Translations under genes and position numbers: made by a program
The notes under the pieces: generated by a model
Seen by the model: the letters and a program-made list of their open reading frames with translations, nothing else
What the model was told of the DNA's origin: nothing
Database searches by the model: none
IMG/VR virus record: IMGVR_UViG_3300031702_000475
Span: 1 to 46,178 of that record
Length of the DNA: 46,178 nt
Reading direction: 5' to 3' (one strand)
DNA from: a virus
Shown: positions 15,744-21,007 of the stretch, one piece after another
Position numbering within the stretch: position 1 is the stretch's first letter
How the letters are laid out: each line of letters starts with the position of its first letter

Positions 15744-15777
15744 AAGGGGTATGACTGGATGTCATCCCCTTTTTTTA
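15744..15777 (+). terminator. Intrinsic terminator after gp32
   Basis: AAGGGG-T-ATGAC (15744-15755) pairs with GTCATCCCCTT (15761-15771) around the loop TGGAT with one bulged T, and is followed by a run of T. It stops plus-strand transcription before the convergent IscU gene. The IscU stop codon lies inside the hairpin. Confidence 0.85.
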
Positions 15778-16145
15778 TTCCTGTAATCTGAGATTGCGCT
15801 CTTGATCGCGTCCTCTGCTAGGACAGAACAGTGTATCTTAACAGGTGGCAATGCTAACTCTTCTGCCAGTTCTGTATTCTTTATAGTGTTGGCATCATCC
15901 AAGGACTGACCAATGACCCATTCGGTAAGTAGACTACTAGAAGCAATAGCACTACCGCAACCATAAGTCTTGAACTTCGCATCTTCTATTATCCCTTCTT
16001 CGTTTACTCTTATCTGTAGTCTCATAACATCACCACACGCAGGGGCACCTACCATACCAGTGCCCACGTTCTTGTCGTGTTCGTCCATGTTTCCTACGTT
16101 TCGAGGATTCTCGTAATGGTCTAGTAACTTCTCACTGTATGCCAT
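15762..16145 (-). CDS. iscU: IscU-type iron-sulfur cluster scaffold
   Basis: This 127-residue protein is a complete IscU: C37 with D39 (GAPACGDVM), C63 (YGCGSAIASSS) and C106 (VKIHCSVLAEDAI), the three cluster ligands and the stabilising aspartate, plus LPPVK at residues 99-103, the motif recognised by the HscA chaperone. IscU assembles [2Fe-2S] clusters from IscS-derived sulfur and hands them on. Its ATG overlaps the tape-measure stop codon by one base (TAATG), so it is the last gene of the late tail operon and probably made late. Its stop codon lies in the gp32 terminator. The intact LPPVK suggests use of host HscA/HscB. Confidence 0.93.
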   Translation of the reverse strand: MAYSEKLLDHYENPRNVGNMDEHDKNVGTGMVGAPACGDVMRLQIRVNEEGIIEDAKFKTYGCGSAIASSSLLTEWVIGQSLDDANTIKNTELAEELALPPVKIHCSVLAEDAIKSAISDYRNKKRG

Positions 16146-18190
16146 TAACCAAATCCTTGGTCGTGGAAACTTCTATCATTGTGATCTTGGGTTGGTAAGT
16201 TCTGATCTATGATAGCGGCAGTGTTACTGTTACTATTGTTTGTTACTGTCGATGTCTGTGGAGCAATCATAACGGCACTAGTACCACCTGCCGCTTGTGT
16301 GTTCTCTCTAGACATTCCGTCTAGTTCACCGCCTCTTTGTGCTTTGATTGCTTCGATCTGTTCGAGTTTATTATCATTGTTAGACAAGATGCGTTGTCCA
16401 TATGCGCTGTCCTCATCTAGTTTCTGACCATTCTTCATGCCAGTAGACTTTATCACTCGAAATTTCTCTTCGTCTCTGAGCAATCTATCTTCGGCACGTC
16501 GATCCTTGTCTGCCTTTATTTTGGCACGTTTCTTTCTCTTTTCTTCCTGATCTTTTTGGTATGAAGGATCGTCCAGATCCTTTAAGAATTCCGCTGTGTC
16601 CGCGTTCATTGGTTTAGGATTAGTATCACTTGCCGCTTTAGTCTTCGTAACTTCTACAGGAAGTTCAGGAACTTCGGATGTATTCTCTGCTTCTACAGGA
16701 AGTTCAGGAACTTCGGATGTATTCTCTGCTCCCACTGCTTCTACAGGTGGGGGTGGAGCAACATTAACATAATCGTAGACTGCATCTGGTACTAGTTTAC
16801 CTAACAGTGAGTCTGCGTCTGGTAGTATACTACCTATCAGTTCCTTTAGTTTATTCAATGCCATTGCCGCGAAGTCACCGACTGCACTCTTGGCATCATC
16901 AAACTTACCCTCAAGACCGAGCAACTGAAGGATCTTTGTGAATGCCCCAGTGACCAACGTCTTGATGGTATTCCAAACCCTACTAGGAAGTTCCAGTAAC
17001 CATTCGAAAGTAAACCCTTCCCCATCTAACCCAAGCATATTACCAACCGCAGAGAACCAATCACTGATTCCTTTTATAGCGTCTTGTATAATCAAGTCAA
17101 ACTTTAGTTTGAATATATCTCCTGCATTATCTGTGTTGGTGAATATGTCACCCAGACTATCAAAGAATCCTCCAATCAAATCCATTAGACTGAATTCTGA
17201 GACCATCTTTCCAAAGTCTTCAAAACCAAGAGTCTTTGCTACGAAAGCGACGATCTTCTTTGGTATGAAGAATATGATATCAAACAAACCACCAATAATA
17301 TTCTTTGCAAGAGAACCTAAGAAGTCAACGATACCTCTTGTCATCTTCTTACCAAACCCACCTGTCTGATTCTTGAATCCCTTGAATCCATCAAACAGAC
17401 CGATTAGGGCACTGATGACTTGACCAATGATAGGAATCTTAGTACCGAACACTTTGAATACAGTGAAGACTTTTCCTAAAGATCCACCCTTAGAAAACAT
17501 ATTGCCAAACCCACTCAACAACTTTGTAGGGCCAGCGAACAGGTTCTTAAAGGTTGCCGTTATTTTTGCTAACAGACCACCTGCTTCCTTACTAGACTCG
17601 ATTGCTTTACCAACGGCACGGAAGGGAGTCAGTAAGAATCGTATCCCTTTGCCAATACCATTCATTATCTTAGACAACATGCCCATAGGTTTGAATGCAC
17701 CATTGACACCCCTACTGATACTCGTGAAACCTCTAGTACCTGCCATGAACGCATTACTAACGTTCTTCAAGTTCCTACTTAGACTCTTTACTCCCTTGGC
17801 AATAGAAGAACGGAATCCTGCTGTTGCTTTGTCAATCCAAGTACCTTTGAGTAATTTAGAGGCAAACCCACCTAACCAAGTTGCCACACCAGTGACGAAT
17901 CCTGAGACTGCCGCACCGAGAGTTAGGGCAAATCCTGCGATACCCATTCCACCAGTGAAGTCATCTTTCTGGAAACCTTTGATAGGGTTAGGCTTTTTGC
18001 CCTCACCTTTCTTATCGTCTCTGCGCTTCTCTTCATCGTCAAGTTTATCCCCCGCAAACGACTTCAAGAACTTTTCCATGTTCTTGTTTAGGTTCGTTAA
18101 CTGGGTAGTAGTCGCTTTATCTCCACTCTTCGTTGTATCGTTGAGTTCTCTTAAACCGACTGCTACTTGTTTTAGGTTGGTCTCTGCCAT
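16145..18190 (-). CDS. Putative tape-measure protein (gp29 position)
   Basis: This 681-residue protein has a helical charged N-terminus (MAETNLKQVAVGLRELNDTT), a Lys/Asp-rich linker, then several hydrophobic Gly/Ala-rich segments (for example GMGIAGFALTLGAAVSGFVT) alternating with basic helices up to about residue 460, a Pro/Glu-rich linker with a 13-residue duplication, and a charged coiled C-terminus. That composition, and its place right after a frameshifted tail-chaperone gene, fit a tail tape measure that sets tail length and interacts with the host membrane. T4 gp29 (about 590 residues) would be the counterpart; I see no direct sequence match. AAGG precedes the ATG. Confidence 0.65.
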   Translation of the reverse strand: MAETNLKQVAVGLRELNDTTKSGDKATTTQLTNLNKNMEKFLKSFAGDKLDDEEKRRDDKKGEGKKPNPIKGFQKDDFTGGMGIAGFALTLGAAVSGFVTGVATWLGGFASKLLKGTWIDKATAGFRSSIAKGVKSLSRNLKNVSNAFMAGTRGFTSISRGVNGAFKPMGMLSKIMNGIGKGIRFLLTPFRAVGKAIESSKEAGGLLAKITATFKNLFAGPTKLLSGFGNMFSKGGSLGKVFTVFKVFGTKIPIIGQVISALIGLFDGFKGFKNQTGGFGKKMTRGIVDFLGSLAKNIIGGLFDIIFFIPKKIVAFVAKTLGFEDFGKMVSEFSLMDLIGGFFDSLGDIFTNTDNAGDIFKLKFDLIIQDAIKGISDWFSAVGNMLGLDGEGFTFEWLLELPSRVWNTIKTLVTGAFTKILQLLGLEGKFDDAKSAVGDFAAMALNKLKELIGSILPDADSLLGKLVPDAVYDYVNVAPPPPVEAVGAENTSEVPELPVEAENTSEVPELPVEVTKTKAASDTNPKPMNADTAEFLKDLDDPSYQKDQEEKRKKRAKIKADKDRRAEDRLLRDEEKFRVIKSTGMKNGQKLDEDSAYGQRILSNNDNKLEQIEAIKAQRGGELDGMSRENTQAAGGTSAVMIAPQTSTVTNNSNSNTAAIIDQNLPTQDHNDRSFHDQGFG
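16651..16728 (-). repeat. Tandem 39-base duplication in the tape-measure gene
   Basis: Two copies of a 39-base unit run head to tail, nearly base-identical, encoding two 13-residue repeats of the type VEAENTSEVPELP in the linker of the protein. Near identity at DNA level suggests a recent duplication. Confidence 0.85.
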
Positions 18191-18192
18191 TG

Positions 18193-18384
18193 TTACTGCC
18201 CTTGTTGTTCTTGTTTAATTCTATCGTTCTCTTCCTTTACATAATCAATTAACATACTTACATATATCTCCCTTTCCCACGGCATCATTGTATCTATTTC
18301 TGATAAATTATAATGATGGTGTTGCATCAACGAAAAGTTGGTCTTATAATGATTGACCAAGTTATCGTGAGAAAGGTTTATGAC
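18193..18384 (-). CDS. gp51-like tail-chaperone extension, read by -1 frameshift from gp26
   Basis: This frame encodes 63 residues, VINLSHDNLVNHYKTNFSLM and onward, with HHHYNLSEIDTMMPWEREIY, that look like the short gp51-type proteins of marine T4-like phages. It has no good start: the frame's only upstream start is TTG at 18432 with no usable ribosome-binding sequence, and the homologous part begins before the first ATG (18327). It is in the -1 frame relative to gp26 and meets it at a T TTT TTG heptamer, so ribosomes slipping there would make a 299-residue gp26-gp51 fusion. It ends 2 bases before the tape-measure ATG. If it is translated separately from ATG 18327 instead, the product is 44 residues. 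Confidence 0.6.
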   Translation of the reverse strand, partial: VINLSHDNLVNHYKTNFSLMQHHHYNLSEIDTMMPWEREIYVSMLIDYVKEENDRIKQEQQGQ

Positions 18385-19091
18385 AAAAAATCTGATATTC
18401 CTTTCAGTTTCCTTTCTACCGTCTCTCCGCAACCTTCACACGCAAATTTAAGATCATGTTCTATTGCAGGTAGTTCACTAAGGAACTTTGACACACCTGC
18501 AAACTGGTCTGATGTCATGGACTCAATGAAATCAATCAACTCTTCTTGTGTCGATTCACTGGCATCAATCCTTTCGTCTTCGGTTAGGATGGCGGCAATT
18601 GATTGTGCTAACATAGCAAAACCCATCTCCGTCTGATCGCCCTCTTCGAGATCCATCTTCAATACATCCGAGTACTTTGGGTATTGCATCTCTACTGATA
18701 TGTTGTCTGTTATCTCAATTGTGTTTTCCTGATCTTCGGGGAACTTAACTTGAATTGCCGCGATGTCTAGCGACACTTCGTTCTTATGTCCACACCCTTC
18801 ATTAGAGCAAGGTACAACAATAGTCGCACTCTCTCCAACTGACTTAGATCTAACCTGAGTAAACAGATACTCTACGTCAAATGTCGTTAGACTTTTTGCA
18901 TCTATGTTTTCAATACAAGCGTCTAGTGTATTGACGATTGCATTCAATGCTTCTTTCTGATGACCAGTCTCAAATGCAATCATTAGTATCTTCTCTTCTT
19001 TGACCAAGTATGGTCGGTAACTGACAGTATCTCCAGTAGAAGGGACTTTACAAGTGTATTGCGGTGATGCGTTTAGTTTTGGTAATGCCAT
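18378..19091 (-). CDS. 26: gp26-like baseplate hub assembly protein / tail chaperone
   Basis: This 237-residue protein matches the T4 gp26 family: MALPKLNASPQYTCKVPSTG, YRPYLVKEEKILMIAFETGH, and a cysteine pattern CSNEGCGH (mid) and CEGCGE (C-terminal), which may form a zinc ribbon. In T4, gp26 acts in hub assembly and is not strictly required in the virion. ATG 19091 follows TTGGAG at 6 bases; an in-frame TTG four codons upstream is dismissed. The last codons before the stop form a slippery heptamer leading into the -1 frame ORF. It sits between gp54 and the tape measure. Confidence 0.85.
   Translation of the reverse strand: MALPKLNASPQYTCKVPSTGDTVSYRPYLVKEEKILMIAFETGHQKEALNAIVNTLDACIENIDAKSLTTFDVEYLFTQVRSKSVGESATIVVPCSNEGCGHKNEVSLDIAAIQVKFPEDQENTIEITDNISVEMQYPKYSDVLKMDLEEGDQTEMGFAMLAQSIAAILTEDERIDASESTQEELIDFIESMTSDQFAGVSKFLSELPAIEHDLKFACEGCGETVERKLKGISDFLS
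18384..18390 (-). promoter_or_regulatory. Probable -1 ribosomal frameshift site T TTT TTG
   Basis: Read on the minus strand, the heptamer T TTT TTG is in frame with gp26, one sense codon (TCA) before its stop codon, a strict X XXY YYZ site. AAAGGA lies 8 bases upstream (18399-18404), where Shine-Dalgarno-like stimulators act. A TTGGTC/GACCAA hairpin lies downstream (18338-18360), though its 23-base spacing is long. Confidence 0.7.
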
Positions 19092-19116: not shown

Positions 19117-19851
19117 TTAAATCTTTCCTAATAGAAAGTTTGTTAATGATGAAATAGCACCACGACCAATTGCTTCGCCTGTGCCTGTATGTTGTCCTAC
19201 CGTGCTTTCCCAATCAGTGTACGACAGTTGTACTGTCAATTCCATTACACCTTCTTCGGCATTACCTAACTGCTGATCAGAGATCGTAGTAGGGTAACAC
19301 TCTCGTAATGAAACCGAGTATGTCTTCTTCTCTTGAAATGACGCACCTGCGTCTATCTCGCCTTGCTGTAGATCAATCGGGCCAACCTTGGGTAGTCTGT
19401 TCCGTATGAAGGATGGAATCTTATCTACGAATCCCAACTGCTTCTTAAAGAGAGACAATCTAAGTCCTCTCTCTATTAACGCAATCTTCACTGGGTATGT
19501 ATAATCTTCGAAGTAACCTACGGTACGACTCACTGGATCGTGTGCCTCTGCTTGCCATGCTTCGAAGTACTGTCGTGCCACATGATCGTTTCCTACCAAG
19601 AAGGTCAATGTTAGATCTGTAGTAGCATAACCATTAGCAATCTTACGTTGGGTTGTACCCATTGCCTGATCGATGGATGTGATCTGCCGTCCCGGTAATG
19701 ACGCAACCGTACAGAAGATGTTCAATGTCTGTGCGTCTACAGAAAAGGATGCGAGTTGGGGTAGTTGAACCATGAACTGATTCGCCTTTGCCAAACCACC
19801 CGACTTACTGAGTTCTGCTTTTAATGTTTCTATTGATGAACCTGCACTCAC
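19117..19851 (-). CDS. 54: Baseplate tail-tube initiator (gp54-like, tube-fold)
   Basis: This 244-residue protein has the tube-protein pattern: FMVQLPQLASF, CTVASLPGRQIT, TTDLTLTFLVGNDHVARQYF followed by EAWQ, YTYPVKIALIE and C-terminal CYPTTISDQQLGNAEEGVME with LTVQLSYTDWES. This is the gp19/gp54 beta-barrel fold. The position next to gp26 and gp4, away from the capsid genes, favours gp54, the protein on which the tube starts, over the main tube protein gp19. The start is GTG 19851 within the previous stop (GTGA overlap). Confidence 0.7.
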   Translation of the reverse strand: MSAGSSIETLKAELSKSGGLAKANQFMVQLPQLASFSVDAQTLNIFCTVASLPGRQITSIDQAMGTTQRKIANGYATTDLTLTFLVGNDHVARQYFEAWQAEAHDPVSRTVGYFEDYTYPVKIALIERGLRLSLFKKQLGFVDKIPSFIRNRLPKVGPIDLQQGEIDAGASFQEKKTYSVSLRECYPTTISDQQLGNAEEGVMELTVQLSYTDWESTVGQHTGTGEAIGRGAISSLTNFLLGKI

Positions 19852-20473: not shown

Positions 20474-21007
20474 TTAACGCTTTGCTCGTGGTTTCTTTAC
20501 ACGAGTCTTTGCTTTAGGTCTGAATGGTGGTAAAGGTTTAATAGGTTTCTTTGATCGTAATGGTTTAGGCATCAACCCCATTGCTTGAAGTTTCTGTTCA
20601 GTCCAGATCTCGAAGTGCCACCCCCTATCTGCCGCATACTTGGTCGCTTCTTTCCACTTACTCTGGTTCTTAATATAAGTCATACCCTCATTCAGGACGA
20701 TACGTCTGGATCTACCTTGACCAGTTTTGGGTGGTAATGTCTGGGCATGGGGTTTGACCTCTACCAATACGGTACGACCATCCCTGAACTTTATCAAGAA
20801 ATCCATGAAGTACCGGTGAATTCGCTTGTCAGTCTCGCATAAGTATGGTATAATGACTTCTTCGGAGTTCCACTTAACTACCTGTGCGGAATCGTCACAC
20901 CACTTCATAACGTGCCTTTCCCACATACTTCGATACTGTACCTTGGTATGGTCACCTAGATACTTATCTTTATTCGAAGGTTTGTATCTTCCCTTGTAAG
21001 TTTTCAT
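20474..21007 (-). CDS. 4: Head completion protein gp4
   Basis: This 177-residue protein has the gp4 pattern: YKGRYKPSNKDKYLGDHTKV followed by QYRSMWERHVMKWCDD, WNSEEVIIPYLCETDKRIHR and YFMDFLIKFRDG with VLVEVKPH. The latter three blocks (E, D and E-x-K) form the TnsA-like nuclease core that gp4 resembles. In T4, gp4 completes the head before tail joining. The C-terminal 30 residues are extremely basic and proline-rich (RSKKPIKPLPPFRPKAKTRV), longer than T4 gp4 (about 150 residues). Confidence 0.85.
   Translation of the reverse strand: MKTYKGRYKPSNKDKYLGDHTKVQYRSMWERHVMKWCDDSAQVVKWNSEEVIIPYLCETDKRIHRYFMDFLIKFRDGRTVLVEVKPHAQTLPPKTGQGRSRRIVLNEGMTYIKNQSKWKEATKYAADRGWHFEIWTEQKLQAMGLMPKPLRSKKPIKPLPPFRPKAKTRVKKPRAKR

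Follow-up and report, generated by a model that had tools for sequence, protein, structure and literature searches.

How does a marine T4-like phage express a gp51-like reading frame that has no credible start codon of its own? The question is raised by a 46,178-nt stretch of DNA from an uncultured marine T4-like phage (IMG/VR record IMGVR_UViG_3300031702_000475, positions 1 to 46,178; hereafter the window). Comparison of the locus with its relatives indicates that it very probably encodes a tail assembly chaperone, and that a programmed -1 ribosomal frameshift yields a short product, gp26, and a long product, gp26-51. On the minus strand, the gp26 homologue (18378..19091, 237 aa), the putative short chaperone form, ends with GGA ATA TCA GAT TTT TTG TCA TAA, and the slippery heptamer T TTT TTG, phased with the gp26 frame, lies at 18384..18390, one codon (TCA) before the TAA. 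Past the heptamer the -1 frame (18193..18384, minus strand) remains open for 63 residues (VINLSHDN...QQGQ), resembling the C-terminal part of gp51, and its stop, TAA at 18195-18193, is separated by two bases from the ATG (18190) of a 681-aa ORF. The predicted gp26-51 fusion is 299 aa long. An earlier note, made from the sequence alone, had described gp26, the heptamer one codon before its stop, the 63-residue frame, an AAAGGA motif and the ATG spacing, and on re-reading all of these coordinates hold. The site stands alone in the window: of 75 stop-to-stop ORFs that are 100 codons or longer, gp26 is the sole case of an X XXY YYZ heptamer located no more than nine codons from the stop and followed by a -1 extension of at least 60 residues. 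Runs of six T occur 7 times in the 46,178 bases, both strands counted.

Is the heptamer maintained by selection, or does it merely accompany the protein sequence? Relatives were drawn from IMG/VR and from GenBank phages, the widened set including phages of Rhizobium, Agrobacterium, Stenotrophomonas, Aeromonas, Vibrio, Pseudomonas, Pelagibacter and cyanobacteria; clustering at 80% gp26 identity gave 81 clusters with a -1 extension. Every one of the 162 first-pass loci places the extension in the -1 frame, and T TTT TT is present in 179 of the 182 loci of the widened set. Just before the gp26 stop, T TTT TTN is found in 80 of 81 clusters (N being T in 27, C in 26, A in 24 and G in 3), the single cluster lacking it being an Ackermannviridae-type phage. 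The distance from heptamer to gp26 stop is 6-12 nt, and 30 nt in one cluster. The older annotation treats gp26 and gp51 as two independent hub-assembly proteins, which would make the heptamer a by-product of an Asp/Ser/Asn-Phe-Phe motif; the Phe pair is indeed partly a protein feature, as T4 gp26 likewise ends in K-E-F-F. However, given each gene's own codon usage about 25 heptamers are predicted (24.5 of 79 under this null), whereas 79 are observed, although the clusters are not independent and the formal product probability (log10 about -51) should not be read at face value. Elsewhere within gp26, T TTT TT encodes only 7 of 119 F-F or F-L pairs. T-even-type gp26 provides a natural control, because it needs no shift and yet keeps the Phe pair, written TTC TTT; correspondingly, the heptamer is found in none of the 11 Straboviridae gp26 genes that are accompanied by a separate gp51. 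We therefore regard two unconnected proteins with a fortuitous heptamer as hardly credible.

If the frame is entered by frameshifting, it should bear the marks of coding sequence upstream of any start codon. In the window the -1 frame has its first ATG at codon 20, counted from the slip, within the conserved part. In codons 1-18 of the extension, which precede the usual first ATG, the residues L, H, L, N and F are each conserved in more than 85% of clusters, and the share of differences between relatives that falls at third positions of the -1 frame is 63%, compared with 61% downstream of the ATG. The conserved stretch starts immediately after the heptamer. This pattern of substitutions indicates that translation of the -1 frame starts right at the heptamer and that the frame is under selection at the protein level. 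Could the gp51-like protein nevertheless arise from its own initiation? The -1 ORF of the window is opened by a TTG, and translation might begin at this codon (18432) or at the TTG of codon 9, the only possible starts ahead of the first ATG, or by a restart at the gp26 stop. A few relatives do possess an early ATG, at codon 4 in S-PM2 and at codon 3 in phiM9, P10VF, Mendera and phi-Grn1, and K357 carries the sequence TAATG. Across 77 extensions, however, no conserved start codon was found and upstream starts are missing in most: 69 have no ATG in the first ten codons, 41 have no ATG, GTG or TTG there, and in 22 the TTG at codon 9 is the only candidate. Independent initiation also leaves unexplained both the excess of T TTT TTN and the onset of conservation right at the 3' side of the heptamer, and we consider it very improbable. 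Thus, aligned across marine T4-like phages, the locus keeps the heptamer and the -1 frame and does not keep a gp51 start codon, as the earlier note had anticipated in describing a frame without a credible start whose conserved part begins upstream of its first ATG. In Vibrio phage K357 the junction reads AAG TAATG, the gp51-like ATG overlapping the gp26 stop, and a switch from frameshift to stop-restart is possible in this phage. Annotation of the extension is inconsistent: S-WAM1 lacks it, while C48C1 and Vibrio phage D479 have it annotated from a codon inside the frame.

A run of T may also be read imprecisely by RNA polymerase, and transcriptional slippage, in which an extra U is added on the T run and the altered message carries the ribosome into the -1 frame, would yield the same protein. 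Runs of seven T in 18 of 80 clusters and of eight T in 9 of 80 would favor such a mechanism. Against this, 53 of the 80 clusters have only six T, which is short for known transcriptional slippage sites, and the run keeps the phase of the heptamer. A signal in the RNA 3' of the heptamer likewise fits slipping by the ribosome. In the window, a predicted stem-loop (18327..18370, minus strand; core stem 18360-18355 with 18343-18338) has a minimum free energy of -11.3 kcal/mol and a z of -3.4 relative to synonymous-codon versions. Family-wide, the mean folding energy 3' of the heptamer is -11.1 kcal/mol versus -7.7 kcal/mol for sequences of the same protein and codon set, and against permuted codons the RNA after the heptamer shows a mean z of -1.39 (p 2e-11), compared with -0.23 in a control window further downstream; other runs of this comparison gave similar results. 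The signal arises from individual hairpins at shifting positions, whose registers differ between lineages; RNAalifold returned no consensus pair from 78 ungapped rows, and neither convincing covariation for any single helix register nor a common consensus helix was found. It is possible that a stem-loop 3' of the heptamer stimulates frameshifting, and we assign transcriptional slippage a very small probability. A second candidate stimulator, the Shine-Dalgarno-like AAAGGA (18399..18404, minus strand), does lie 8 bases 5' of the heptamer as the earlier note had reported, but a stimulatory role for it gains no support from comparison, the mean match in 79 genes being 4.11 versus 4.13 in codon-shuffled versions, with no excess. 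The motif probably arises as a side effect of a Gly codon that is conserved and that T4 gp26 shares.

What, then, are the proteins that a -1 ribosomal frameshift would produce? The gp26 of the window matches Pfam T4_baseplate (PF12322; E=2.4e-57) and phrog_150 (E=8e-63), and the -1 frame matches the C-terminal part only of phrog_634 (gp51, 'baseplate hub assembly catalyst'; E=1e-28) as well as the last part of phrog_150. Because T4 gp51 matches phrog_150 end to end, this family spans both short and long forms. Pairwise BLASTP with the window fusion detects T4 gp51 (E=4e-8) and T4 gp26 (E=1e-7), and profile comparison relates gp26 to T-even gp51 with a probability of 97% (E=2.6e-11). An AlphaFold2 model of gp26 has a mean pLDDT of 94, and the best PDB matches of its residues 1-95 are Rbstp2171 (3fgx; Z 7.5, rmsd 4.0 over 85 residues) and HK97 gp13 (2ob9; Z 7.2, rmsd 3.9 over 84 residues), both of which are phage tail assembly chaperones (PMC9603447). 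Z values of 7-8 (below 8) can by themselves reflect a common arrangement; each of the two matches covers most of its target, the next-ranked, unrelated chain has a Z of 4.5, and it is unlikely, judging from the model, that both top matches are chaperones by accident. Foldseek of the gp26 model against the PDB gave nothing with E below 0.001. The model of T-even gp51 (pLDDT 80) shows the element order of gp26 plus three C-terminal helices that match the extension; searched against the PDB, it returned no chaperone and nothing above Z 4.9. On the minus strand, a tail tube-type protein (19117..19851; phrog_45, E=6e-33) is followed by gp26 with its -1 extension and then by the 681-aa ORF (16145..18190), a candidate tape measure protein. 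The latter is proposed by position and by its hydrophobic stretches, as its own family matches are weak with no firm tape measure match; the ORFs at the corresponding position in phi-Grn1 and D479, both Vibrio phages, match tape measure PHROGs with E values of 7e-10 and 2e-10, respectively. Given homology, fold and gene order, gp26 and gp26-51 are in all likelihood tail assembly chaperones.

The arrangement has a close parallel in the E / E+E' gene of phage P2, which shares TTTTTTG near the end of the short ORF and a -1 extension, and which adjoins the tape measure gene as the marine locus adjoins a candidate one; the P2 products are of 91 and 142 aa, compared with 237 and 299 aa here, and the P2 site has no reported 3' hairpin, whereas the marine locus shows a stem-loop signal (PMC3091744). 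In lambda G/GT, a -1 shift in the chaperone gene likewise leads to a minor extended form (PMC5009743), the proteins being smaller than gp26 and gp26-51, and it is by analogy with this system that functions can be proposed. Most ribosomes would terminate at the TAA and release the 237-aa gp26, while a minority, perhaps aided by the stem-loop 3' of the heptamer, would shift back by a single base at T TTT TTG, enter the gp51-like frame and complete the 299-aa protein. On the lambda model, the short form may coat the tape measure protein, the extension may recruit tail tube subunits, and both forms would depart before tail completion. The analysis shows the sequence and its conservation, the coding character of the -1 frame that lacks a start, the signal of RNA structure and a predicted fold like that of chaperones; that ribosomes slip here, how often they do so and which partners the two products bind is what we infer from the locus. 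The slippery sequence of lambda G/GT differs from T TTT TTG.

A question remains, how do T4 and its closest relatives manage with genes 26 and 51 apart? The earlier note had taken T4 gp26 and gp51 for the two halves of a frameshifted chaperone. We find instead that T4 gp51 (249 aa) aligns in one frame with the whole fusion, across the junction, and that T4 gp26 (208 aa) aligns with the short form only, its end being near the slip position. Hence T-even phages hold the short and the long product as two genes, and by these alignments T4 gp51 is the in-frame long form, paralogous to gp26. The T4 proteins are thus homologous to those of the marine locus, but are encoded by two separate, divergent genes without the heptamer. 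Straboviridae include both arrangements: the heptamer with the -1 extension in AS-yj, AsFcp_1 and phi-Grn1, and two genes in T4, Meroveus and Aes508. No second in-frame long gene was found in the 46-kb fragment, where the matches to phrog_150 are one gp26 and the -1 frame only. In the tree, Straboviridae gp26 and gp51 each form solid clades; the union of the two has an ultrafast bootstrap of only 80, so that the duplication may have arisen inside or outside the family. Ackermannviridae keep the -1 gp51-like extension, mostly without a start codon, and replace the heptamer by (A/G)TT TTC AT(T/C) TRA, so that some members of the wider family do without it. Ile codons match on either side of the stop in Det7, Magnus, Kevin and 2050H1 (ATT TA ATT, ATC TA ATC, ATC TG ATC) and do not in Dickeya Ds5CZ (ATT TA ATG), while Vibrio phage Bakedbeans, a relative of this set, retains GAT TTT TTC ATT TAG. 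A broader scenario, which we put forward as speculative and rather unlikely as a whole, is that the frameshift was the ancestral source of the long chaperone in T4-related phages, that T-even phages came to use a duplicated in-frame gene instead, that Ackermannviridae follow a third and as yet undescribed route of recoding at (A/G)TT TTC ATY TRA, such as a hop between the Ile codons on either side of the stop, and that the branches which frameshift share a 3' stem-loop as stimulator.

Long-tailed phages in general have frameshifted chaperones, 'except T4' according to a 2016 review (PMC5009743), a statement that now narrows to the branch with two genes. In Leiman et al. 2010 both gp26 and gp51 are listed among the chaperones of hub assembly (PMC3004832), and the Meroveus record labels 26, 51 and 28 tape measure chaperones. 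In the part of Sullivan et al. 2010 considered here, the gp51 of cyanophages and of marine vibriophages is reported to be without about 200 N-terminal residues, and no recoding explanation for the short marine gp51 was found there (PMC3037559). Such proteins are probably not truncated, gp26 supplying the N-terminal part via the shift. Vladimirov, Gautam and Davidson (Virology 2022, 566:9-15) identified T4-like chaperones, according to papers that cite them; by these accounts some consist of one short and one long gene (PMC10274946), and T4-like short-chaperone genes carry polyT slippery sequences (PMC12846349). As far as the citing papers convey it, that work shares with the present picture the chaperone identity, the two-gene solution and the polyT sites, whereas the earlier note had not seen such an arrangement described for T4-like phages; because T4-like chaperones and polyT sites are already named, the locus is filed with the known frameshifted chaperones. 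In the literature consulted we did not find described how strongly, in numbers, the site is conserved across Kyanoviridae and their relatives, nor the structure signal 3' of the heptamer, nor the Ackermannviridae exception. Of the G/GT-like gp26-gp51 fusion first proposed, then, comparison strongly supports the core; T4 gp26 and gp51 are not two halves, the Shine-Dalgarno-like element finds no support, and the arrangement is already described. Deposited genomes present gp51 as a separate gene, begin it at an internal ATG or omit it, and therefore the long protein is missing from databases. The finding corrects annotation in many genomes and offers a clean experimental target.

Several minor features of the locus deserve mention. 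The gp26 of the window contains two conserved Cys pairs, C95/C100 and C218/C221, reminiscent of a site for zinc binding; cyanophages, among them S-PM2 and S-WAM1, have other residues in place of the second pair. The head closure protein at 20474-21007 (minus strand; phrog_218) matches a Pfam TnsA-like endonuclease N-terminal domain (E=1e-19). Adjoining the end of the 681-aa ORF, a 127-aa ORF (15762-16145, minus strand) has a translation that resembles, on inspection, an IscU/NifU iron-sulfur scaffold protein.
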